NCBI RefSeq assembly: GCF_003346775.1
Contig: NZ_CP031219.1
Coordinates: forward strand, 1,302,001-1,366,000
Direction: 5' to 3'
DNA: 64,000 bases
DNA from: Malaciobacter mytili LMG 24559
GTDB lineage: Bacteria; Campylobacterota; Campylobacteria; Campylobacterales; Arcobacteraceae
Shown here one piece after another: positions 45,555-56,435 of this stretch (within the stretch, counting starts at the first letter, position 1; every line of letters begins with the position of its first letter). Below the pieces are notes generated by a model, which did not search any database, was not told where the DNA came from, and saw only the letters and a list, made by a program, of their open reading frames with translations. A program made the translations under genes and the position numbers.

Positions 45555-45577
45555 AGTAAGTAGAAATTCTACTTACT
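45555..45577. terminator. Bidirectional terminator palindrome
   Basis: 11-bp perfect inverted repeat (AGTAAGTAGAA / TTCTACTTACT) around one base, covering the end of fumC and the space after the flavin reductase. T-rich on the + strand. Confidence 0.7.
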
Positions 45578-46970
45578 CTTTTGGATATGTCATATCTTCA
45601 GGTTTAACATACTTATCAAACTCTTCATTTGATAATAAACCTAATTTAACTGCTTCTTCTTTTAGTGTTGTTGCATTTTTATGTGCAGTTTTTGCTATAA
45701 GTGCTGCATTTTCGTATCCAATATATGGATTTAAGGCAGTAACTAACATAAGAGAATCATTTAAATATTTTTTTATATTTTCTAAATTTGGTTCAATTCC
45801 TACGGCACATTTATCATTAAAAGCAATCATTGTATCACTTAATAGTTTTATTGATTGTAAAATATTATAAGCTATTACAGGCTTAAAAACATTTAATTCA
45901 AAGTTTCCTTGACTAGCACTAATACTAACAGTTGTATGATTTCCCATAACTTGAACTGCAACCATAGTCATAGCTTCACTTTGTGTAGGATTTACTTTTC
46001 CTGGCATTATTGAACTTCCTGGTTCATTTTCAGGAATATTAAGTTCCCCAATTCCACATCTAGGTCCAGAGGCTAACCATCTAATATCATTTGCAATTTT
46101 CATTAAGTTTGAAGCTAAAGCATTTAATGCCCCACTTAAAAAAACTTCACCATCATGGGAAGTTAAAGCATGAAATTTATTTGGATGGGAAATAAAGTTA
46201 TAAGAAGTCTTTGTTTGCTCATTTAAAACTTCACAAACCATTTGAGAAAACTTTGGATGGGAATTAAGTCCTGTTCCAACCGCAGTTCCTCCAATAGCAA
46301 GTTCAACAAGATATTTTATACTATCTTCTACTTGTGCTTGTGCTTTTTCTAGCATATTTACATAGGCACTTAACTCTTGTCCTAAAGTTAAAGGTGTTGC
46401 ATCTTGTAGATGAGTTCTTCCAATTTTTACAATATCTTTAAACTCTTCAGATTTTCTTATAAAAGTATCTTTTAAAAGTTTTATTGCTGGAAATAGTTGT
46501 TTTTGTAATTCTAAAACAAAAGCAATTCTCATTGCAGTAGGGTAGGTGTCATTTGAACTTTGACCTTTATTTACATCATCATTTGGATGTACAAGTTTTC
46601 TAATTCTAAAGTCTTCTCCTAAAATCTCAGTAGCTCTTGAAGCAACTACTTCATTTATATTCATATTTGATTGTGTTCCACTTCCTGTTTGCCAAACAAC
46701 TAAAGGAAAGTTTCCATCAAGTTTCCCCTCACAAACTTCATCACAAGCTTGAATTATAGCCATAGTTTTATTTTCATCAAGTCTATTTAATCTATTGTTT
46801 ACTACGGCACAAGCTTTTTTTAAATAAGCAAATCCCTCAATAATCTCTTTAGGCATTGTTTCATTACCAATAGGAAAATTTTCAATGCTTCTTTGAGTCT
46901 GTGCTCCCCAATATTTATCATTTGGTACTTGCATCTCTCCCATTGTATCTTTTTCTATTCTATATTCCAT
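45573..46970 (-). CDS. fumC: Class II fumarate hydratase
   Basis: 465 aa, iron-free homotetrameric fumarase of the aspartase/fumarase superfamily. [16 protein letters not shown] is the signature and catalytic serine loop; TGLNSHP and SGPRCGIGE are also present. The start at 46970 (MEYRIEKD) has AAGGAGAGGATT; 12 upstream codons lack a ribosome binding site. Interconverts fumarate and malate in the TCA cycle. A class I fumarase is encoded 1 kb away, so the cell has both classes. Confidence 0.95.
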
Positions 46971-47038
46971 AATCCTCTCCTTTATGTTTGCCTGATTATA
47001 ACACAAAAAAGTGGATTATGAGAATGAATATCAAAAAT

Positions 47039-47875
47039 TTATTCAACAATTTGATGAAGTTTTGAACATTGTCCTAAGTATAAATCAACCCCACTCATAT
47101 CATTCATAATATCTTGAAAACTATGAATATGTGCATTATAAACATATACAAAAATCTCATCCCCCTTTTTTAAATAGTTATGTTTCCCAAATTCAGTATA
47201 GGCTGTTGCACCTGCTGCTATTAGCATTCCTTTTGCTTTATTTGCATTTTTTAAAAAGGGTTTTAACTCTTCTAAAGGTCCACAATCTTCTTGGGTATTA
47301 AATTTATCAATCATCCATGTTTTTAATTGATTAAAAAAGTAACTATATGATTTCACAGCAGAAATTGTTCCATAATCATAAACTATTCCATCTCTTTTTA
47401 TAAAAGAGGCAATATGAAATTTATTTAAAATTGAATCTTTTTCATCAAAACTATTAATTTGGATTAATTCTTGTGAAATACCTTTTGTTTTTGTTCCCCA
47501 ATTTTTCTTTGTACTTAATTTTTTCCCATCATTTACTCTAATTGAGCAATCATTAAAAGCACTAAAATATTTAGGAATAATATCTACTACTTTTTCATTT
47601 TCATATATAAAATCACAAATTAAAGCTACTTCTGCTTCAATTTGAAGATTTTGATCCTCTTTTCCATGTGTTAAAATTGTATCATCACAAATAGGGTATG
47701 TCCCTAAAAAGCTTTCATAATCTTTTATATAAAATGGAAAGATACCTTTTGGTGCATTTTTTTCTTCTGTTTTAATTACAGAAAACTCATCTGCTTCTCC
47801 TGCTTCTCCTAAATGATTTGCAAAATTCCCTGCAACTGCAAATCCTAAATAATCTTTTAAATCTTCTAATATCAT
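47039..47875 (-). CDS. DUF5718 / FAH-like protein
   Basis: 278 aa. IEAEVALICDFIY and KNWGTKTKGIS have the look of the metal-binding and lid segments of the fumarylacetoacetate hydrolase fold; NCEV-type residues are partly replaced. I believe this is the DUF5718 family of Campylobacterota, without known function. It lies between two fumarase genes on the same strand (68 nt before fumC), which hints at a role with dicarboxylates, but the 132-bp gap with a terminator separates it from the class I fumarase operon. Confidence 0.6.
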   Translation of the reverse strand: MILEDLKDYLGFAVAGNFANHLGEAGEADEFSVIKTEEKNAPKGIFPFYIKDYESFLGTYPICDDTILTHGKEDQNLQIEAEVALICDFIYENEKVVDIIPKYFSAFNDCSIRVNDGKKLSTKKNWGTKTKGISQELIQINSFDEKDSILNKFHIASFIKRDGIVYDYGTISAVKSYSYFFNQLKTWMIDKFNTQEDCGPLEELKPFLKNANKAKGMLIAAGATAYTEFGKHNYLKKGDEIFVYVYNAHIHSFQDIMNDMSGVDLYLGQCSKLHQIVE

Positions 47876-47981: not shown

Positions 47982-48009
47982 AATTACAAAGGCTTAAGCC
48001 TTTGTAATT
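47982..48009 (-). terminator. Terminator of the mesaconate-type operon
   Basis: 28-bp perfect palindrome (AATTACAAAGGCTT / AAGCCTTTGTAATT), overlapping the stop codon of the class I fumarase, then TTTTACTTAC on the minus strand. This is the boundary of the operon. Confidence 0.8.
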
Positions 48010-49498
48010 AGATAGTTCTCCATTTTTGTGGTCCAGTTGTATGAATAGATACACCCTCAGTATCGACCGCGACTGTTACTGGCATATCTTTAACTTCAAA
48101 TTCATAAATAGCTTCCATTCCTAATTCTTCAAATGCTACTACTTTTGCATCTTTAATAGATTGAGAGATAAGGTAAGCTGCACCACCTGTTGCAATTAGG
48201 TAAATTGATTTATATTCTTTAATTAAATCAATAGTTGGTTGCTTTCTTTCTGCTTTACCAATCATACCTAAAATACCAATCTCCATCATATCTTTAGTAA
48301 ATTTATCCATTCTTGTAGAAGTTGTAGGTCCAGCAGGTCCAACTACTTCATCTCTAACTGGATCAACAGGTCCAACATAATAAATAAATCTATCTTTTAA
48401 CTCTAAATTATTTGGTAGAGCTTTTCCTGCATTTTTATACTCAACAATTTTTTTATGAGCTGCATCTCTTGCTGTTAAAATTTTTCCAGATAAAAGTAAT
48501 GTATCTCCTGATTTAAACTGAGATAAATTCTCTTTTGTTAATTCTTCAATATTTACTCTTTTTACACTATCCATTGGAATTTCTAAATCTGGCCAAATAT
48601 CTAAAGATGGTTTTTCAAATTTAGCAGCTCCATTTCCATCTAATTCAAAATGAATATGTCTTGTTGCAGCACAGTTTGGAATCATTGCAACTGGCAATGA
48701 AGCAGCATGACATGGATAATCTAAGATTTTAACATCTAAAACAGTTGTAAGACCACCAAGACCTTGTGCTCCTGTTCCAATTTTATTAATATCTTCATAT
48801 AATCTTAATCTTAACTCTTCAATGGCATTTTTAGGACCTCTTGCTTTTAGTTCATGAATATCAACATGTTCCATTAAAGACTCTTTTGCTAAAAGCATAG
48901 CTTTTTCTGGATTTCCACCAATTCCAATTCCTAAAATACCAGGAGGACACCATCCTGCACCCATTTGTCTTACATTGTCCATAACCCAATCATAAATTGA
49001 ATCAGATGGATTTAATACAGCAAATTTAGATTTATTTTCACTACCACCACCTTTAGCAGCAACAGTAATTTCAATCTTATCTGAGTTATCAACACTATAG
49101 TGAATAACTGCTGGAGTATTATTTTTTGTATTTTTTCTCTCACCTGCTGGGTCACTTACAACAGAATATCTTAAAGTATTATCTGGGTCAGTATAACCTT
49201 TAGCTACACCTTCATTTAATACTTCTTCTAACTCTTTTGATAATTCAAGTTTTGCATTTAAACCAACTTTGATAAAAATATTTACAGAACCTGTATCCTG
49301 ACATAGGGGTCTATGACCCATTGCACACATTTTTGAGTTGATTAGAATTTGAGCAATGGCATTTTTAGCTGCCCCTGATTGCTCTTTTTCGTATGCCTCA
49401 ACCATTCCTTGAACAAAATCTTCTGGATGATAATACGAGATATATTGACATGCACCTGCGATGCTGTCGATAATATCTTGCTCTTTAATAACGCTCAT
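48008..49498 (-). CDS. Class I fumarate hydratase, candidate mesaconase
   Basis: 496 aa, alpha (1-285) and beta (300-496) parts fused. Three cluster cysteines are visible: Cys66 in RPLCQDTG, one in GAGWCPPGILG and one in IPNCAATRH. VGPAGPTTSTRMDKF is the substrate loop of the beta part. Class I enzymes hydrate fumarate, and several (E. coli FumD, a Burkholderia enzyme) act on mesaconate to give citramalate. It ends a five-gene operon with Mch and CitE-like lyases, which favours mesaconase activity; fumC nearby could serve the TCA cycle. The Fe-S cluster would be oxygen-sensitive. Confidence 0.88.
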   Translation of the reverse strand: MSVIKEQDIIDSIAGACQYISYYHPEDFVQGMVEAYEKEQSGAAKNAIAQILINSKMCAMGHRPLCQDTGSVNIFIKVGLNAKLELSKELEEVLNEGVAKGYTDPDNTLRYSVVSDPAGERKNTKNNTPAVIHYSVDNSDKIEITVAAKGGGSENKSKFAVLNPSDSIYDWVMDNVRQMGAGWCPPGILGIGIGGNPEKAMLLAKESLMEHVDIHELKARGPKNAIEELRLRLYEDINKIGTGAQGLGGLTTVLDVKILDYPCHAASLPVAMIPNCAATRHIHFELDGNGAAKFEKPSLDIWPDLEIPMDSVKRVNIEELTKENLSQFKSGDTLLLSGKILTARDAAHKKIVEYKNAGKALPNNLELKDRFIYYVGPVDPVRDEVVGPAGPTTSTRMDKFTKDMMEIGILGMIGKAERKQPTIDLIKEYKSIYLIATGGAAYLISQSIKDAKVVAFEELGMEAIYEFEVKDMPVTVAVDTEGVSIHTTGPQKWRTI

Positions 49499-49542: not shown

Positions 49543-50526
49543 TTATGAAAAAAATCTTTTTACAACTTCATCTTGTAATTTTTGTCCAGAGAAGTGTGAT
49601 CTTTGCACAAGTTCCCAAAAATATCTGTATGTAGCTCTATCATGTAACTCACCATCATACTGTATTGGTCCCCACTCAGCATCTTGTGCTTTTATTAAAA
49701 TATTTTGTGCATCTTCAAGCTCAGTAAAGTCTGGTTTCATAGCATCTACAATAGCCTGAATTTGTGTTGGATAAATTGACCACATTCTCATAAATCCAAA
49801 CTCATTTCTTGCTCTTTCTGCATCTTTATATGTTTGATAAGGATTTTTTAAATCAAGTGTTACATTATGACAAGGTATAACATGATTTTGAATTGCTGCT
49901 TGACAAACTCTAGCTTTTGCTGCACCAATTAATCTATGGTCAAATTGACCTGGACTTCTCATATTAATTGCAGGAATTGCTCCTTGGTATCCAGAAACAA
50001 AATCCATTAATCCAAAATCTAATACTTGTAACCAAGGTAATGTTGCAATTTTTTCAACATCATTTAATGCCCCATGAGTTTCAATTAAAACGTGAATTGG
50101 GATCTCTTTGCTTATTCCAGCTTCTTTACATTTTGCTTGAATATACTCAATTTGTGTTTTTGCATCTTCATAACAAGTAGATTTTGGTAATGTAATATAT
50201 GCTAATTTTTCTCCTGCTCCTGGTACTAAAATATCAACATCTTGTCTCCAATCAGCATGAGAATGGTCATGAATTCTAACTCCAGCCATAGAGTATGGAT
50301 TAGCATCTGAATTAACTACTCTTACTATCATATTTGCATGTTCAACTTCTTTTCCAGTCTCTGCTCCATCTTCGCAGTCACAAGTAATATCAAAAACTGG
50401 TCCTAATTTTTTTTGCATTTCAAAAGCTTTTAAAATTAGTTTTTCACTTCCTGCAAAGTGCTCACAAGAAGGTATAACTGGTAAAGATTTTCCTGATTCA
50501 AATAGTGCTTCATTTGGATGTGTCAT
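49543..50526 (-). CDS. HpcH/HpaI-CitE-type CoA-ester lyase (short form)
   Basis: 327 aa TIM-barrel lyase. It retains the expected motifs: DITCDCEDGAETGKE, an Arg in GVRIHDHSH, the metal Glu in HVLIETHGAL and the metal Asp in FGLMDFVSGYQG. MRMWSIYPTQIQAIVDA is the C-terminal region seen in malyl-/citramalyl-CoA lyases of Proteobacteria. Likely cleaves beta-methylmalyl-CoA or citramalyl-CoA (or malyl-CoA). Sits 24 nt after mch and 44 nt before the fumarase. Confidence 0.82.
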   Translation of the reverse strand: MTHPNEALFESGKSLPVIPSCEHFAGSEKLILKAFEMQKKLGPVFDITCDCEDGAETGKEVEHANMIVRVVNSDANPYSMAGVRIHDHSHADWRQDVDILVPGAGEKLAYITLPKSTCYEDAKTQIEYIQAKCKEAGISKEIPIHVLIETHGALNDVEKIATLPWLQVLDFGLMDFVSGYQGAIPAINMRSPGQFDHRLIGAAKARVCQAAIQNHVIPCHNVTLDLKNPYQTYKDAERARNEFGFMRMWSIYPTQIQAIVDAMKPDFTELEDAQNILIKAQDAEWGPIQYDGELHDRATYRYFWELVQRSHFSGQKLQDEVVKRFFS

Positions 50527-50550: not shown

Positions 50551-51603
50551 TTATTTTTGTTTTTTTGGAATAACTACTGTGTAGTCTAAATCTAATACAA
50601 CTTCTTTTAAATATTTTCCATTTTCATCAAAAGTTGTTTCAATTTCTTCAGGTCTTTTATTTTTTAACCCAACAGTTCTTAATCTTAATAATCCTAAATC
50701 TTCTCTTTCATGATTAATAGTCTCTATTACTTCTGTAAAAGCATAGATTGTATCTCCTGCAAATGTTGGATTTGCGTGAGCTCCACTATTAATAGAGTAA
50801 ATCCATTGTGCATTTTGTAATCCATTAAAAGAAATACTTCTTGCAATAGAAATTACATGTCCTCCATACATAAGTCTTTGTTGCATTGGAGTGCTTTTCA
50901 TCATAAAATCATCAAAATGAACTTTTGCGTTATTTTGATAAAGTTTAGTTGCTAAAGTATGGTCACTATCATCAATAGTAATACCCTCTGCATGGTTTAA
51001 TCTTTCTCCTGCAATATAATCTTCAAAAAAATATTTTCCACCAGTAGCATCAATATTTATATTTGATAAAAATGGTATATTAATCTCTTTTGCAATTGGT
51101 TGAACTTTTGCAAAAGTTGGAACTTGATTTATTCCTGATGTTTCATTATGATTCTTTTTATGTACCATAACCCATCTTTTTAGGTTTAATACTTCTTCAT
51201 TATTTTGGTTATAACCAATTGAATGTACATAAACAACACCACTTTTCCCATTTGAGTTCTCTTTTAACCCAATTACTTCAGTTTCTAGTCTTACAGTATC
51301 TCCTGTAAATACAGGGTTTGGAAAAGAAACTTCTGCATATCCTAAATTTGCAATTGCATTTAAAGAAATATCTTGAACTGATTTTCCAAATGTTAAGTGA
51401 AACATTAGTAAATCATCAAGAGGTTTCTTTTTATAACCCATCTCTTGAGCTAAAATATCAGATGAATGTAAAGCAAATCTACTTCCTGTTAGGGCGATGT
51501 AAAAAGATACATCCCCATCTGTAATTGTTCTTGGAAGTGGATGAACTATTTTTTGTCCGATTGTAAAATCTTCAAAAAAGTTTCCTAAATTAATTTTAGA
51601 CAA
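50551..51603 (-). CDS. mch: Mesaconyl-CoA hydratase / beta-methylmalyl-CoA dehydratase
   Basis: 350 aa double-hotdog MaoC-type enzyme. NLGYAEVSFPNPVFTGDT, GLKENSNGKSGVVYVH, LATKLYQNNAKVHFD and YGGHVISIARSISFNGLQNA follow the known Mch proteins closely. It adds water to mesaconyl-C1-CoA to give beta-methylmalyl-CoA. The start is TTG at 51603 with AAGGAGG five bases upstream. An earlier in-frame TTG (51624) would overlap the ligase gene and has no ribosome binding site. Gap to the ligase fusion is 10 nt. Confidence 0.87.
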   Translation of the reverse strand: MSKINLGNFFEDFTIGQKIVHPLPRTITDGDVSFYIALTGSRFALHSSDILAQEMGYKKKPLDDLLMFHLTFGKSVQDISLNAIANLGYAEVSFPNPVFTGDTVRLETEVIGLKENSNGKSGVVYVHSIGYNQNNEEVLNLKRWVMVHKKNHNETSGINQVPTFAKVQPIAKEINIPFLSNINIDATGGKYFFEDYIAGERLNHAEGITIDDSDHTLATKLYQNNAKVHFDDFMMKSTPMQQRLMYGGHVISIARSISFNGLQNAQWIYSINSGAHANPTFAGDTIYAFTEVIETINHEREDLGLLRLRTVGLKNKRPEEIETTFDENGKYLKEVVLDLDYTVVIPKKQK

Positions 51604-51613
51604 AATAGCCTCC

Positions 51614-54133
51614 TTATTTACCAAATAGGTTTTGACCTAATGATTTATATGTTTCATAAAGAGCTATTTTCTTTTTAGCCCATTTAATTCTAGAACTATC
51701 AATTAATTTATTATTATAAATAATTACTTCTCTACCATCTTTTGCTGCTTCTTCATATTTAGCAATCATCTCTTCATAATCAGTTACTTCACTTTGTTTT
51801 GGAGTGAAAATATCATTGATATATTCAATTTGTACTGGATGAATTAGTGATTTACCATCAAATCCTAAGTTATATGCATCTTTAGTTGAGTCTTCACAAG
51901 CAAACTCATCATGTACATCATAATATGGTCCATCAATAACTATCTTACCATAGGCTTTTGCAGCAAGGGCAATTTGCGATAGATAGTTAAACATAGCTTT
52001 TGAACCTTTTTTAATATCAATTTGAAGTCTATTTGCTAGTTTATTTGAACCTGCAACTACAACTTCAACTCTAGAACTAGCACTACAAATATCTTGAATA
52101 TTTAAAACAGAAAGAGGTGTTTCAATCATAATCATTAAAGTTAAATTAGGATTAACTTCATCAATAATTCTAACTGCTTCTAAAACATCTTCTTTTGTCT
52201 CAATTTTAGAGAATAATAAACCATCAATTTCTATATCTCTTGCTAATTGTAAATCTTTTTGTAAATCTTCTGTTCCAAGGTTATTAATTCTTAAAACCCT
52301 TTCTGAATCACCGAATTTAGAACCTTCTTCTTTATAAAAAGTTCTTAAAACTTCTCTTCCTACATCTCTTTGCTCTTGTAAAATTGCTTCAAAATCAAAG
52401 ATTACAGTATCTGCTAAAACTGTTTTAGCTTTTTCTACATTATTTCTATTATAAGAAGGGATAAAAAGCATAGATCTTCTAGCTTTATATTCAGTTATCT
52501 CTTCTCCTTCTTCTTTTGCATGCTCTAAATCGTGAAGATTTTTTACTAATTGTTTTCTAAGAACTTTTCCATTTTTTGTTCTTGGATAATCTTTCATAGT
52601 AAAGATTCTCTTTGGAGCTTTATATTTTGCTAAGTTAGCTTGAGAAAATGTTAAAACTTCTTCTTCTTGCTCTTTTGTTAATTCATTATGACCAATTACA
52701 GCAATAGCCACTAAAGTCTTCTCTTTTTCTATTTCTAAACCAAAAGCAACACAATCAGCTACTAAAGGATGAGTTTTTACAACTCTTTCAATTTCATGTG
52801 GAGATACTCTAAATCCGAAAGTATTGATAATATCATCTTTTCTACCAATAAACCAAATATATCCATCTTTATCTTTTTTAGCATAATCTCCTGTGAAGAA
52901 ATATCCATCGTGTCTAGCTTTAGCTGTTTCATCTTCAAGTTGCCAATACTCTAAGAATAATCCTGGATCATCTTCTCCTATACAAATCATCCCTTCTTCT
53001 TCCACTCCAACTTCTTCTAAAGTTTCAGGATTAAGAAGTTTTACAATATGTCCTGGTTGAACAAATCCTGCACTTCCAGGTCTAATTGGATTATTAACAG
53101 AGTGAGAAATATAATAAGAACATTCACTCATTCCAATTGCTTCAAAAATATCTTGTTTAAATCTATCTCTCCATGCTTCAATCATCTCAGTAGATAGATG
53201 CTCTCCCGCACTCATACAATATCTTAAACTTGGACAATCATTTAATGTAAAATCAGTTTTTTGAATAATTTGTCTATAAATTGTTGGAACACCAATAAAT
53301 ATAGTACATTCATGTTTTTTAATTAAGTTAATCCAAGTAGAAGCATCATTTGCTCCTTCATAAGCAATAACTGTATGACCATTATATAATGGATCCATTA
53401 ATGCAGAACCTAATACATATGTCCAGTTAAACTTACCAGAGTGCATAATCCTATCATTCTTTTTAAAATTAAACCAATATTCAGTAGCAGGAGTTCTTCC
53501 AACTAATGATCTATGAGAATGTAAAACACCTTTTGGATACCCTGTAGTTCCTGATGTATAAACTAAATATGCAGGCTCACCTGATTTTGAGTTATAATGA
53601 TTTGGTGTTTTATCAGTATTTGCTAAAATATCATTTAAAGCATATACATTTATACCTTTTGGCTTTTTAAAACCTTCAATACTATCTGTTGCTGCAACAA
53701 TAATAGTTTTTAAATTATCTATATTTTCTAGATATGGAACTAAATTCTCATACATAGAAGCAGATAAAACAATGGCACTTGCTTGTGAATCTTCAGCAAG
53801 ATATTTAACTTCTGAACCACTTAAAAGTGTAGAAGTAGGAACAGCAATAATTCCAGCTTTAATTGCACCAAAAAATGAAATAGGGTAAGCTAAAGAGTTT
53901 TTTAAACATACTAAAACTCTATCTCTTGCTTCTAACCCAATACTAGTAAGGAAATTACAAATTTGGTCTGATTTCTCTGATAACTCTTTATAAGTTATTG
54001 TATCAGTTCCTAATTTATCATCTTCAATAATCATAGCAGTGTTGTTTTCATTTTCTGTTCCTAGATGAGCAGAAGTACAAGCAACACCAATATTTAAAAA
54101 TTCTGGTACTTCAATTTTAATTGTTGAACTCAT
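51614..54133 (-). CDS. Acyl-CoA ligase fused to a degenerate CitE-like domain
   Basis: 839 aa. Residues 1-545 form an AMP-forming ANL ligase (YTSGTTGYPKGVLHSHRS, TGDYAKKD, catalytic Lys in TKNGKVLRK), benzoate-CoA-ligase-like in outline. Residues 551-800 form a CitE/HpcH TIM barrel (ARRSMLFIPS, FDFEA at 579-583, MIMIETPLS with Glu671, DGKSLIHPVQI). The usual D-x-E-D is D-F-E-A and the metal Asp of the GxxDL loop is Lys698 (AGSNKLANRL), so the lyase half may be inactive or altered. The ligase presumably activates the entry acid of the operon. It is a single uninterrupted frame with normal codon use. Confidence 0.83.
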   Translation of the reverse strand: MSSTIKIEVPEFLNIGVACTSAHLGTENENNTAMIIEDDKLGTDTITYKELSEKSDQICNFLTSIGLEARDRVLVCLKNSLAYPISFFGAIKAGIIAVPTSTLLSGSEVKYLAEDSQASAIVLSASMYENLVPYLENIDNLKTIIVAATDSIEGFKKPKGINVYALNDILANTDKTPNHYNSKSGEPAYLVYTSGTTGYPKGVLHSHRSLVGRTPATEYWFNFKKNDRIMHSGKFNWTYVLGSALMDPLYNGHTVIAYEGANDASTWINLIKKHECTIFIGVPTIYRQIIQKTDFTLNDCPSLRYCMSAGEHLSTEMIEAWRDRFKQDIFEAIGMSECSYYISHSVNNPIRPGSAGFVQPGHIVKLLNPETLEEVGVEEEGMICIGEDDPGLFLEYWQLEDETAKARHDGYFFTGDYAKKDKDGYIWFIGRKDDIINTFGFRVSPHEIERVVKTHPLVADCVAFGLEIEKEKTLVAIAVIGHNELTKEQEEEVLTFSQANLAKYKAPKRIFTMKDYPRTKNGKVLRKQLVKNLHDLEHAKEEGEEITEYKARRSMLFIPSYNRNNVEKAKTVLADTVIFDFEAILQEQRDVGREVLRTFYKEEGSKFGDSERVLRINNLGTEDLQKDLQLARDIEIDGLLFSKIETKEDVLEAVRIIDEVNPNLTLMIMIETPLSVLNIQDICSASSRVEVVVAGSNKLANRLQIDIKKGSKAMFNYLSQIALAAKAYGKIVIDGPYYDVHDEFACEDSTKDAYNLGFDGKSLIHPVQIEYINDIFTPKQSEVTDYEEMIAKYEEAAKDGREVIIYNNKLIDSSRIKWAKKKIALYETYKSLGQNLFGK

Positions 54134-54148
54134 AATATTAACTCCTTA

Positions 54149-55282
54149 CTAAATTTGACCATATGGCCAGTTTTCTCTAAATGTATGAATTGGCATTCTA
54201 TTTAATACATTTAATGCAAATTCTTGATGTTCTGGGCTTAGGCTTCTTAAAGCATAAGCTCTTAAAATATTTTGTAATGCTTTTCCAAACATTGGTGGAT
54301 CTAACATCTCACCTTCATATCTAATCGCACCACTTAATAAAGCATCTGCTTCAATTGCTGCTTTTAATACTGCAACATCATGTTCAATTTCATTTGGACT
54401 TGGAGTAAATGCAACTTTACATACATTAATATGATTAGGTGTAATTACTTGTTTTCCTGTAAGTCCCATTGCACACTCTTTTCTTGCGTGAGCATATACA
54501 TGTCTTGATGCTTCATCTCCATGTAAATCTAACCATCTTCTAATATCTTTTTTCTCTACACATGAATCAGGTAATGAGTTTGGTGTTAATAAAACTTCAA
54601 CCCCACCAATAACTCCTGCACCTTTAATTCTTGCTTCCATAGTAAGAATATTAAAAAATGTTTTTAACTCATCTATCCAACCCTCTGGCGTAATTTTATA
54701 AGCCATTGCTTTAGAAAAGTCATGAATTCCAAATACTACATGTTTTACCGTTGAATAATCCATTAAATCTGATGCAATTTGAAGTGATTTTGGATGCTCA
54801 ATAATTGGTTGAATTGTTAAATTAGCATTAATAGAAACTAACCAAGAAGATAAGTCTCTAATCTCAGCATCTCCATAAACCTCTCCAGCTTTTGCTAAAA
54901 CAATTACATCTATATATTTATGAATTTGTTTTAACATTTTTAAATCCTCTTCATACTCTTCAGTTCTAAAAGGATTTATTCTAACTGCAATTTGAAAATC
55001 TCTTTGTGGGAACTTTGGAAGTTCTTGAATAAGAAGTTCTCTACTCATTGCTTTTTGTCTACAACCATCTTCTAAGTCAAAAAGTACAGTATGTGCTTTT
55101 GTCTTATATGCATGTTTTTGTAATCTTAATTTTGCTTGTTCCATACTTTCATATGTACCATCTAATGGATTGAACTTAATTGGGGGATAGTATATTTGAA
55201 TACCTGGCCAGTACCCACCTAGCACTGGCGTTAAGTCATCATTTGCTGTTAATTTTGATAAATCTAAATGTGATGATGTCAT
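54149..55282 (-). CDS. CitE-like CoA-ester lyase (long form)
   Basis: 377 aa. All lyase motifs are kept: FDLEDGCRQKAMSRE, VRINPF, PIIEHPKS with the metal Glu, and the metal Asp in GIHDFSKAM. An N-terminal 75-residue part precedes the barrel and a C-terminal helical part (MLDPPMFGKALQNILRAYAL) follows. Substrate is uncertain: malyl-, beta-methylmalyl- or citramalyl-CoA. First gene of the operon, start ATG with AAAAAGG, 412 bp from the divergent IclR gene. Confidence 0.82.
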   Translation of the reverse strand: MTSSHLDLSKLTANDDLTPVLGGYWPGIQIYYPPIKFNPLDGTYESMEQAKLRLQKHAYKTKAHTVLFDLEDGCRQKAMSRELLIQELPKFPQRDFQIAVRINPFRTEEYEEDLKMLKQIHKYIDVIVLAKAGEVYGDAEIRDLSSWLVSINANLTIQPIIEHPKSLQIASDLMDYSTVKHVVFGIHDFSKAMAYKITPEGWIDELKTFFNILTMEARIKGAGVIGGVEVLLTPNSLPDSCVEKKDIRRWLDLHGDEASRHVYAHARKECAMGLTGKQVITPNHINVCKVAFTPSPNEIEHDVAVLKAAIEADALLSGAIRYEGEMLDPPMFGKALQNILRAYALRSLSPEHQEFALNVLNRMPIHTFRENWPYGQI

Positions 55283-55694: not shown

Positions 55695-56435
55695 GTGCAA
55701 CAACAACAAAAACAAAATAAATCTTTATCAAAAGGCTTATGTGTATTAAAAGAGGTGATGACAAGCAATAAACCTCTTACAGCTAATGCACTTTGTCAAA
55801 AATTACAAATTGATAAAAGTACAATGTCAAGATTAATTACTACACTAATGAATGAGAATTTTTTAGAGTATAAGGATAATACAAAAGAGATAATTTTAAG
55901 TGATATTGTAAGAAAAATAGTTTATAAAGATGATAGAGAAAAAATAGTTCAAAAAACTCAAGGTTTATTAGATGAAATCTTTTATTTAACTGATGAGTGT
56001 TCATATATTGGTATTTTTGATAACAATGCTGTTTTATATTTAAATCAAGTAGATAAATCAAAAAGAGTTTTAAAAACAAGAAATTCCGTAGGACTTCATG
56101 CTCCAATTCATACAAATGCCTTTGGAAAAGCTATTTTAGCTTTTAATGAAAAAATTGATTTAAATACAATTGATTTGAAAAAATATACCACAAATACAAT
56201 TACAAGTATTACAAAACTAACTAAAGAATTAGAGTTAATAAAAGAAAGAGGTTATGCTATTGGAATAGAAGAGCATGAGTTTGGTTTATGTTCTGTGGCT
56301 GTTCCTTATTTTAATAATAAAGGAGAGTTTATTGGAACAGTGGGAGTTTCTGGACTTTCTGTTAGAATGAATGAAGCAAAACTTCATGAATATGGACAAA
56401 AGATTTTTGCATTGGTGAACCCATCTTTAAAATAG
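55695..56435 (+). CDS. IclR-family transcriptional regulator
   Basis: 246 aa. Winged helix at 10-75 (TANALCQKLQIDKSTMSRLI) and an effector-binding domain with LHAPIHTNAFGKAIL and FGLCSVAVPYFNNKGEF. IclR proteins sense small organic acids and control nearby catabolic genes. The start is GTG with AAGAGAG upstream. It begins with a Gln-rich tail. It is divergent from the lyase-ligase operon, its most likely target. Confidence 0.9.
   Translation: MQQQQKQNKSLSKGLCVLKEVMTSNKPLTANALCQKLQIDKSTMSRLITTLMNENFLEYKDNTKEIILSDIVRKIVYKDDREKIVQKTQGLLDEIFYLTDECSYIGIFDNNAVLYLNQVDKSKRVLKTRNSVGLHAPIHTNAFGKAILAFNEKIDLNTIDLKKYTTNTITSITKLTKELELIKERGYAIGIEEHEFGLCSVAVPYFNNKGEFIGTVGVSGLSVRMNEAKLHEYGQKIFALVNPSLK

Follow-up and report, generated by a model that had tools for sequence, protein, structure and literature searches.

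What does a lyase barrel do once the residues that should hold its metal are gone, and why is it carried behind an acyl-CoA ligase? The question is raised by one gene in a 64,000-nucleotide stretch of Malaciobacter mytili LMG 24559 (contig NZ_CP031219.1, positions 1,302,001 to 1,366,000; hereafter the window). The open reading frame (ORF) lies on the minus strand at 51614..54133 (ATG at 54133, stop codon ending at 51614; the plus strand there holds many stops), and its translation and Pfam domains make it an 839-residue fusion of an acyl-CoA ligase with a pseudo-CitE domain. A first-pass annotation, made from the letters and a list of their ORFs, had picked out this frame and described a CitE-like barrel without its metal residues. 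We find that the loss of the metal site is a trait of the whole fused family and not of one protein. We also lean, with moderate confidence, towards the view that the C-terminal half is a pseudo-lyase, i.e. a CoA-ester-binding and oligomerisation module that would bring the ligase into a trimeric or hexameric assembly and pass acyl-CoA on, and that it descends from a stand-alone CitE-x gene of the same gene cluster.

The fusion as such is already known: a CaiC-plus-CitE fusion was reported in 2007 in Arcobacter butzleri (AB1918, in the cluster ab1917-ab1921; PMC2147049). PMC2147049 treats the CitE domain of AB1918 as a possible malyl-CoA lyase, and the passages on AB1918 do not mention a loss of metal residues. 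In a literature coverage that leaves out most subscription journals and preprints, we found no paper on a CitE domain without its metal, as judged by titles and the openings of abstracts, and searches aimed at a ligase-lyase fusion or a pseudoenzyme gave one unrelated paper only. Within the same limited coverage we also met no account of three findings described below, namely that the whole family has lost the metal site, that unfused operons exist and that the domain is strictly retained.

Loss of the metal site in the fused family

By descent the fused domain belongs to the HpcH/HpaI (CitE-like) family, since residues 553-766 of the fusion protein score 107.5 bits against Pfam HpcH_HpaI (PF03328), for a cut-off of 25. 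Its barrel and lid (approximately residues 550-839; 51617..52486, minus strand) were modelled with AlphaFold2 from 42 sequences, with a mean predicted local distance difference test score (pLDDT) of 90.3 and a predicted template modelling score (pTM) of 0.87. Compared with solved structures by Foldseek and VIA-align, the model ranks malyl-CoA lyases and human CLYBL on top; the whole barrel and lid align with both (5ugr and 4l9y; 5vxc, 5vxo and 5vxs) at Z 31.5-33.2, the best match by VIA-align being 5ugr (Z 33.2, root-mean-square deviation 2.5, 285 aligned residues). In the model a TIM barrel with its C-terminal lid is kept, as had been supposed from the sequence, and Asp812 comes immediately after the predicted lid hairpin. 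Two narrower names do not apply, the scores being 143.1 bits against a required 443.4 for TIGR01588 (citE, the citrate lyase beta subunit equivalog) and 113 against 375 for NF038242 (the RipC/Ccl citramalyl-CoA lyase equivalog).

In malyl-CoA lyase (MCL), Mg2+ is bound by Glu141 and Asp168, Glu44 and Asp45 hold two metal-bound waters, Arg76 contacts the substrate, and Asp299, on the C-terminal lid, reaches in trans into the active site of the adjacent subunit; the metal ligands are said to be "absolutely conserved" across the CitE-like superfamily, whose characterised members need a divalent metal (PMC3832036). The equivalents in the window protein are Glu671 and Lys698 for the metal ligands, Glu582 and Ala583 for the water-holding pair, Arg615 for Arg76 and Asp812 for the lid Asp. 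We counted residues at these positions in 71 distinct fused domains, each from an ORF that ends inside its locus. Position 698 (52040..52042; all codons of this gene are on the minus strand) is Lys in 49, Asn in 10, Thr in 7, Arg in 2 and Gln, Ser and Ala in one each, and is never Asp. Position 583 (52385..52387) is Ala in 57, Gly in 9, Tyr in 3, Met in one and Glu in one, again never Asp. The other metal ligand, Glu671 (52121..52123), is Glu in 62, Asp in 7, Ala in one and Gln in one; Glu582 is retained in 68, Arg615 (52289..52291) is Arg in 66 and Lys in 5, and the lid Asp812 (51698..51700) is Asp in all 71. Neither the metal-ligand pair nor the water-holding pair expected of a functional CitE-like lyase is complete, whereas the substrate Arg and the lid Asp are there as residues. 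The fused domains resemble MCL in keeping the equivalents of Arg76, Glu141 and Asp299 mostly or fully, and they differ from MCL and CLYBL in lacking Asp168 and Asp45 in all 71 and in sitting behind a ligase.

The metal Asp is present in none of the 71 fused domains, against 47 of 52 rows of a non-fused comparison set that includes a truncated fused protein (L070) and a mis-extracted one (L113); the five rows without it are these two and three with Asn. Such a loss goes far beyond chance, and the fused clade is a clade-wide exception to the conservation of metal ligands stated for the superfamily (PMC3832036). The lid differs as well, being Glu in 42 of the 52 non-fused rows and in no fused domain. 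A lid Glu marks the (3S)-malyl-CoA thioesterase cluster, as a trait unique to that cluster according to PMC3832036, and most non-fused CitE-x proteins have it; the fused domains, with a lid Asp and no metal Asp, are unlike that cluster as it is described.

It could be objected that the metal Asp has only been displaced in the alignment, an outcome that the first-pass annotation had itself named beforehand as fatal to its claim. This is ruled out, as three alignments with different members and the alignment used for the tree concur, and the Asp is found nowhere else among many homologues. Position 698 is never acidic, position 697 is Asn in 71/71 fused domains, and 699 is Leu in 28/28 full-length sequences. 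The D-x-E-D block has a one-residue gap in two alignments, so that Ala583 may be a substitution or reflect a deletion of Asp45; the Asp is gone either way. The codons of Asp580, Glu582, Ala583, Arg615, Glu671, Lys698, Asp812 and Lys523 were checked, and Glu671 and the two substitutions read as first described.

The two other CitE-like proteins of the cluster keep the residues in question, which had also been noted from the sequence. Cit377 (54149..55282, minus strand; motifs DLEDG/IEHP/GIHDF, from Pfam and alignment) and Mcl327 (49543..50526, minus strand; CDCEDG/IETH/GLMDF, E 1.7e-136 to 3qqw) each have the E-D, I-E and metal-Asp residues and a lid Asp of their own. The family offers taxonomically spread natural metal-less variants beside intact paralogues, plus operons that are still unfused.

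The ligase half (approximately residues 1-540; 52514..54133, minus strand) matches Pfam AMP-binding (residues 30-397, 244.3 bits) and AMP-binding_C (447-523), shows the AMP motif YTSGTTGYPKG, and has at 52565..52567 the codon of Lys523, which we take from its family role to be the catalytic Lys and which is invariant in the 28 sequences of the full-length alignment (A4; the domain alignment, A3, has 42). It is an AMP-forming acyl-CoA ligase by its two domains and this Lys, and its motifs are intact, in agreement with the first description. The best solved matches are anthranilate-, 4-hydroxybutyrate- and benzoate-CoA ligases, and no named subfamily (benzoate, malonyl-CoA or others) passed its NCBIfam cut-off among the 25 models viewed of 111 matched. 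Full-length relatives of the fusion protein are 63-92% identical to it.

Origin and spread of the fusion

The full-length fusion is present in 25 of the 60 genomes searched, the window's own counted. Of 397 genomes sampled from the phylum, 38 carry the fused domain (478-533 bits, in open frames of 840-881 residues), and Cit377 (E 1e-60 or better) occurs in exactly the same 38; another 18 give nothing but distant CitE-type matches, of about 130 bits or less. A scan of genome contigs, in which the best 80 of 131 relatives were kept (79 loci), gave 49 fused loci (L040-L088) from Arcobacteraceae, Sulfurospirillum and gammaproteobacterial metagenome-assembled genomes, one of them (L070) cut inside the gene, and 30 stand-alone loci (L089-L118), mostly from Methylophilales and also from Sideroxydans, Methylophaga and others. 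The order Cit377-ligase-CitE-Mch-Mcl is seen in 47 of the 49 fused loci, the other two being cut by locus ends, and CitE-x-Mch-Mcl in 27 of the 30 stand-alone loci, with the exceptions at stretch ends. Cit377 lies directly upstream of the fusion in 20/20 loci, and in 48/49 of the larger set, where L070 begins inside the fusion. No relative came up in two scans of viral contigs. On plasmids, seven records covered at least 80% of the whole-protein query, and none proved to be such a fusion outside the family: in four (H26, H27, H29, H31) the ligase and the lyase are annotated as separate genes, H33 has an alcohol dehydrogenase after the ligase, and H28 and H34, which carry no annotation, show a pair of distinct ORFs of fitting size that lie in different frames.

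In the tree, which leaves out L113 and L176 (a near copy of L175), the fused domains group as a single clade (100/100) whose stem is long, at 1.75 substitutions per site; this clade is nested in one with stand-alone CitE-x genes (99/94), of which L158, L175, L178 and L179 are nearest (96/82). Since Mcl327 and Cit377 are distant long branches, the fused domain seems unlikely to be a recent duplicate of either. Loci L175, L176 and L179 encode the ligase and CitE-x in two adjoining genes, the stop codon of the first overlapping the start codon of the second in the sequence ATGA, and because of this overlap a small change could have fused a pair of the L175 type. Fusion of the two genes is old and has been conserved, and unfused precursor-like operons persist.

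Degeneration is wider than the fusion, as the unfused CitE-x of these three loci carry Asn in place of the metal Asp and a lid Gln. By parsimony, loss of the metal Asp takes two changes, and a tree that holds the fused clade and L175/L179 together is not rejected by the approximately unbiased test (p-AU 0.204). L178 has an intact metal motif and lies outside such a cluster. In a sample of 369 genomes of the Methylophilus class (G422), six have Cit377 and all six have CitE-x, three with Asn at the metal position; ten others carry CitE-x-like genes but lack Cit377. The Methylophilales-type CitE-x keep the metal Asp and Glu, but read DLGD or DLGA for DLED and have Glu in the lid; we found no description of this combination in the literature consulted.

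The ratio of nonsynonymous to synonymous substitution rates (dN/dS), in 28 pairs of 8 close sequences, spans 0.06-0.24 in the domain and 0.03-0.17 in the ligase. At five divergent loci (L034-L038), identity to the window is 52-55% in the domain, 70-75% in the ligase, 81-89% in Mcl327 and 83-86% in Cit377. The fused domain is under purifying selection, yet less constrained than the ligase and the neighbours; 51 of its 278 columns are invariant in the 71 sequences.

What the pocket may still do

Because the Mg ligands are absent, Mg-dependent making or breaking of C-C bonds by the known CitE/malate-synthase mechanism should be lost. We conclude, from what the sequences have kept, that the pocket probably still serves some use. 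As we picture it, the fused domain would bind a CoA ester, with its barrel, most conserved loops and lid Asp retained; it would set the ligase in a CitE-type trimer or hexamer; and it might hold the acyl-CoA or hand it over to the hydratase and both intact lyases. Six of the eight active-site loops have mean entropies of 0.33-0.58, where the median column has 0.86. In 32 of 41 columns that are conserved in a reference set, the residue of that set is retained by at least half of 18 fused rows, with the caution that this set (19 of 26 non-fused, non-CitE-x rows) leaves out L158, L163, L166, L173, L175, L176 and L179, some for degenerate motifs, and looks more conserved because of it. The reference residue stands in 18/18 fused rows at Arg553, Asp575, Arg593, Asn617, Asp627, Asp734, Lys761 and Gln768. 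Two positions show replacements that are themselves fixed or nearly so, Cys683 (about 52085-52087, minus strand; 18/18) and Glu802 (about 51728-51730, minus strand; 17/18), where the reference set has mostly Ala and Gly.

Several observations weigh against this picture. The loss extends beyond the metal site, fewer than half of the fused rows having the reference residue at 584, 642, 643, 683, 688, 802 and 808. The beta-3 and beta-4 loops (0.74 and 0.88) are near or above the entropy median. The lid hairpin as a whole varies (1.17) except at Asp812, which fits poorly with any conserved function of the lid beyond that residue. The full-length model (pLDDT 76.7, pTM 0.53) does not place the two halves reliably, and the linker between them (residues 542-549; 52487..52510, minus strand) has a pLDDT below 50. 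Finally, the invariant Asp812, Asn697, Asp734 and His765 and the conserved loops would suit metal-free catalysis equally well, and these data do not tell a scaffold, a sensor and a metal-free catalyst apart. Scaffold or CoA-ester sensor, as the first-pass annotation proposed, seems to us the most economical reading; its further suggestion of a different chemistry may hold, but a chemistry based on Lys698 is rejected because just 49/71 domains have Lys there, and the variation of this residue across the family speaks against any special role for Lys. The substrate channelling that it drew from the fusion is only an inference.

Metal-free catalysis is a rival reading that we hold to be doubtful. 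Asp812 would act as base, with Arg615 and Asn697 helping as an oxyanion hole would, in an isomerisation of mesaconyl- or itaconyl-CoA, an epimerisation at the alpha-proton or a thioester hydrolysis. Asp812, Asn697, Asp734, His765 and Asn617 are all invariant in the 71 domains; six of the eight pocket loops are conserved; the lid Glu of most non-fused rows is, according to PMC3832036, a trait of the malyl-CoA thioesterase cluster; and the ten window proteins scanned gave no match to a CoA-transferase family, which leaves one step of the known routes without a candidate. Against it, Arg615 is Lys in 5/71, Glu671 is changed in 9/71 and 78% of columns vary less than position 698. The domain also evolves faster than the ligase, and the characterised malyl-CoA thioesterase is itself among the enzymes that require a metal (PMC3832036). 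The more specific form of the idea, a CitE barrel re-used as a metal-free isomerase, epimerase or thioesterase, with the lid Asp812 working in trans and the fused ligase supplying the substrate, we regard as slightly more doubtful still. If it were true, this would be, to our knowledge, the first member of the CitE/malate-synthase superfamily that functions without a divalent metal.

The trans-acting lid of MCL (PMC3832036) brings to mind another arrangement, in which the pseudo-subunit, its own site dead, lends Asp812 to the sites of Cit377 or Mcl327 in a hetero-oligomer. The lid Asp kept in 71/71 while the metal Asp in cis is lost, and the sharing of an operon by the unfused relatives, are in keeping with it; we think it unlikely, as both supposed partners have a lid Asp of their own and the fused domain varies in the rest of its lid hairpin. 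An ordinary lyase that holds its metal by other residues is very improbable: Glu671 and Glu582 are mostly kept and Asn697, beside the lost Asp, is invariant, but no acidic residue stands in at 698, only one sequence has Glu at 583, Glu671 is itself not constant, and Asn already lies beside an intact Asp in the relatives L039 and L165. Neutral decay of a relic, suggested by the faster evolution of the domain and its long stem branch, is hardly to be believed of a domain found in all 38 Cit377-bearing genomes, with the low dN/dS and the invariant columns given above; decay as a pseudogene is disfavoured likewise. For the pseudo-lyase that we favour, as for its rivals, the role of the dead lyase in the pathway is directly testable, be it binding, assembly or new chemistry.

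The gene cluster and its proposed route

The fusion sits in a tight minus-strand cluster in the order Cit377, fusion, Mch, Mcl327, class I fumarase, DUF5718, FumC, with a divergent IclR gene. Mch (50551..51624, minus strand; Pfam MC_hydratase) resembles mesaconyl-CoA hydratase / beta-methylmalyl-CoA dehydratase, with phmmer E-values of 4.4e-100 to 8hgn, a solved beta-methylmalyl-CoA dehydratase, and 5.2e-107 to 4e3e. A 15-nucleotide gap (54134-54148) separates Cit377 from the fusion, which overlaps Mch by 11 nucleotides (51614-51624) if the TTG start of Mch is correct; gap and overlap suggest translational coupling along the cluster.

From this gene content, the route probably runs from mesaconate or citramalate through mesaconyl-C1-CoA and beta-methylmalyl-CoA to propionyl-CoA and glyoxylate. 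It follows the 2007 proposal for A. butzleri (PMC2147049) and the citramalate cycle as reviewed (PMC8307300). The AB1918 cluster, likened here by its description, has the same neighbour types and was given a citramalate / 3-hydroxypropionate-like route (PMC2147049). The same gene types, mesaconyl-C1-CoA hydratase and methylmalyl-CoA lyase, belong to the partial 3-hydroxypropionate bi-cycle and citramalate cycle modules of Kentron (PMC6593406) and purple bacteria (PMC8307300); those schemes use CoA transferases, whereas here the AMP-forming ligase is the candidate activator. Any proposal must fit the reported inability of A. butzleri to grow on acetate, citrate or propionate (PMC2147049). The genome gave no match to malate synthase, and its sole match to the isocitrate lyase family is short (58 bits, in a 302-residue frame); the two results are weak evidence for a cluster in which glyoxylate is made or used in the absence of a glyoxylate bypass. 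The fused domain marks an uncharacterised five-gene C5-dicarboxylate/glyoxylate module common to Campylobacterota, methylotrophs and other Pseudomonadota.

The class I fumarase (48008..49498, minus strand; Pfam Fumerase and Fumerase_C) is a possible mesaconase, an activity reported for enzymes of this class (PMC4682846), and may lie outside the core of the cluster because it is in view at just 23/49 fused loci. The best named model for the divergent IclR regulator (55695..56435, plus strand) is BhcR, at 129.5 bits far below the cut-off of 350. The DUF5718 protein (47039..47875, minus strand) is a cluster companion in view at 29/49 fused loci, and its match to the fumarylacetoacetate-hydrolase fold is below threshold (E 0.073). 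FumC (45573..47006, minus strand) is a class II fumarase, with 752.2 bits against TIGR00979 for a cut-off of 664.75.

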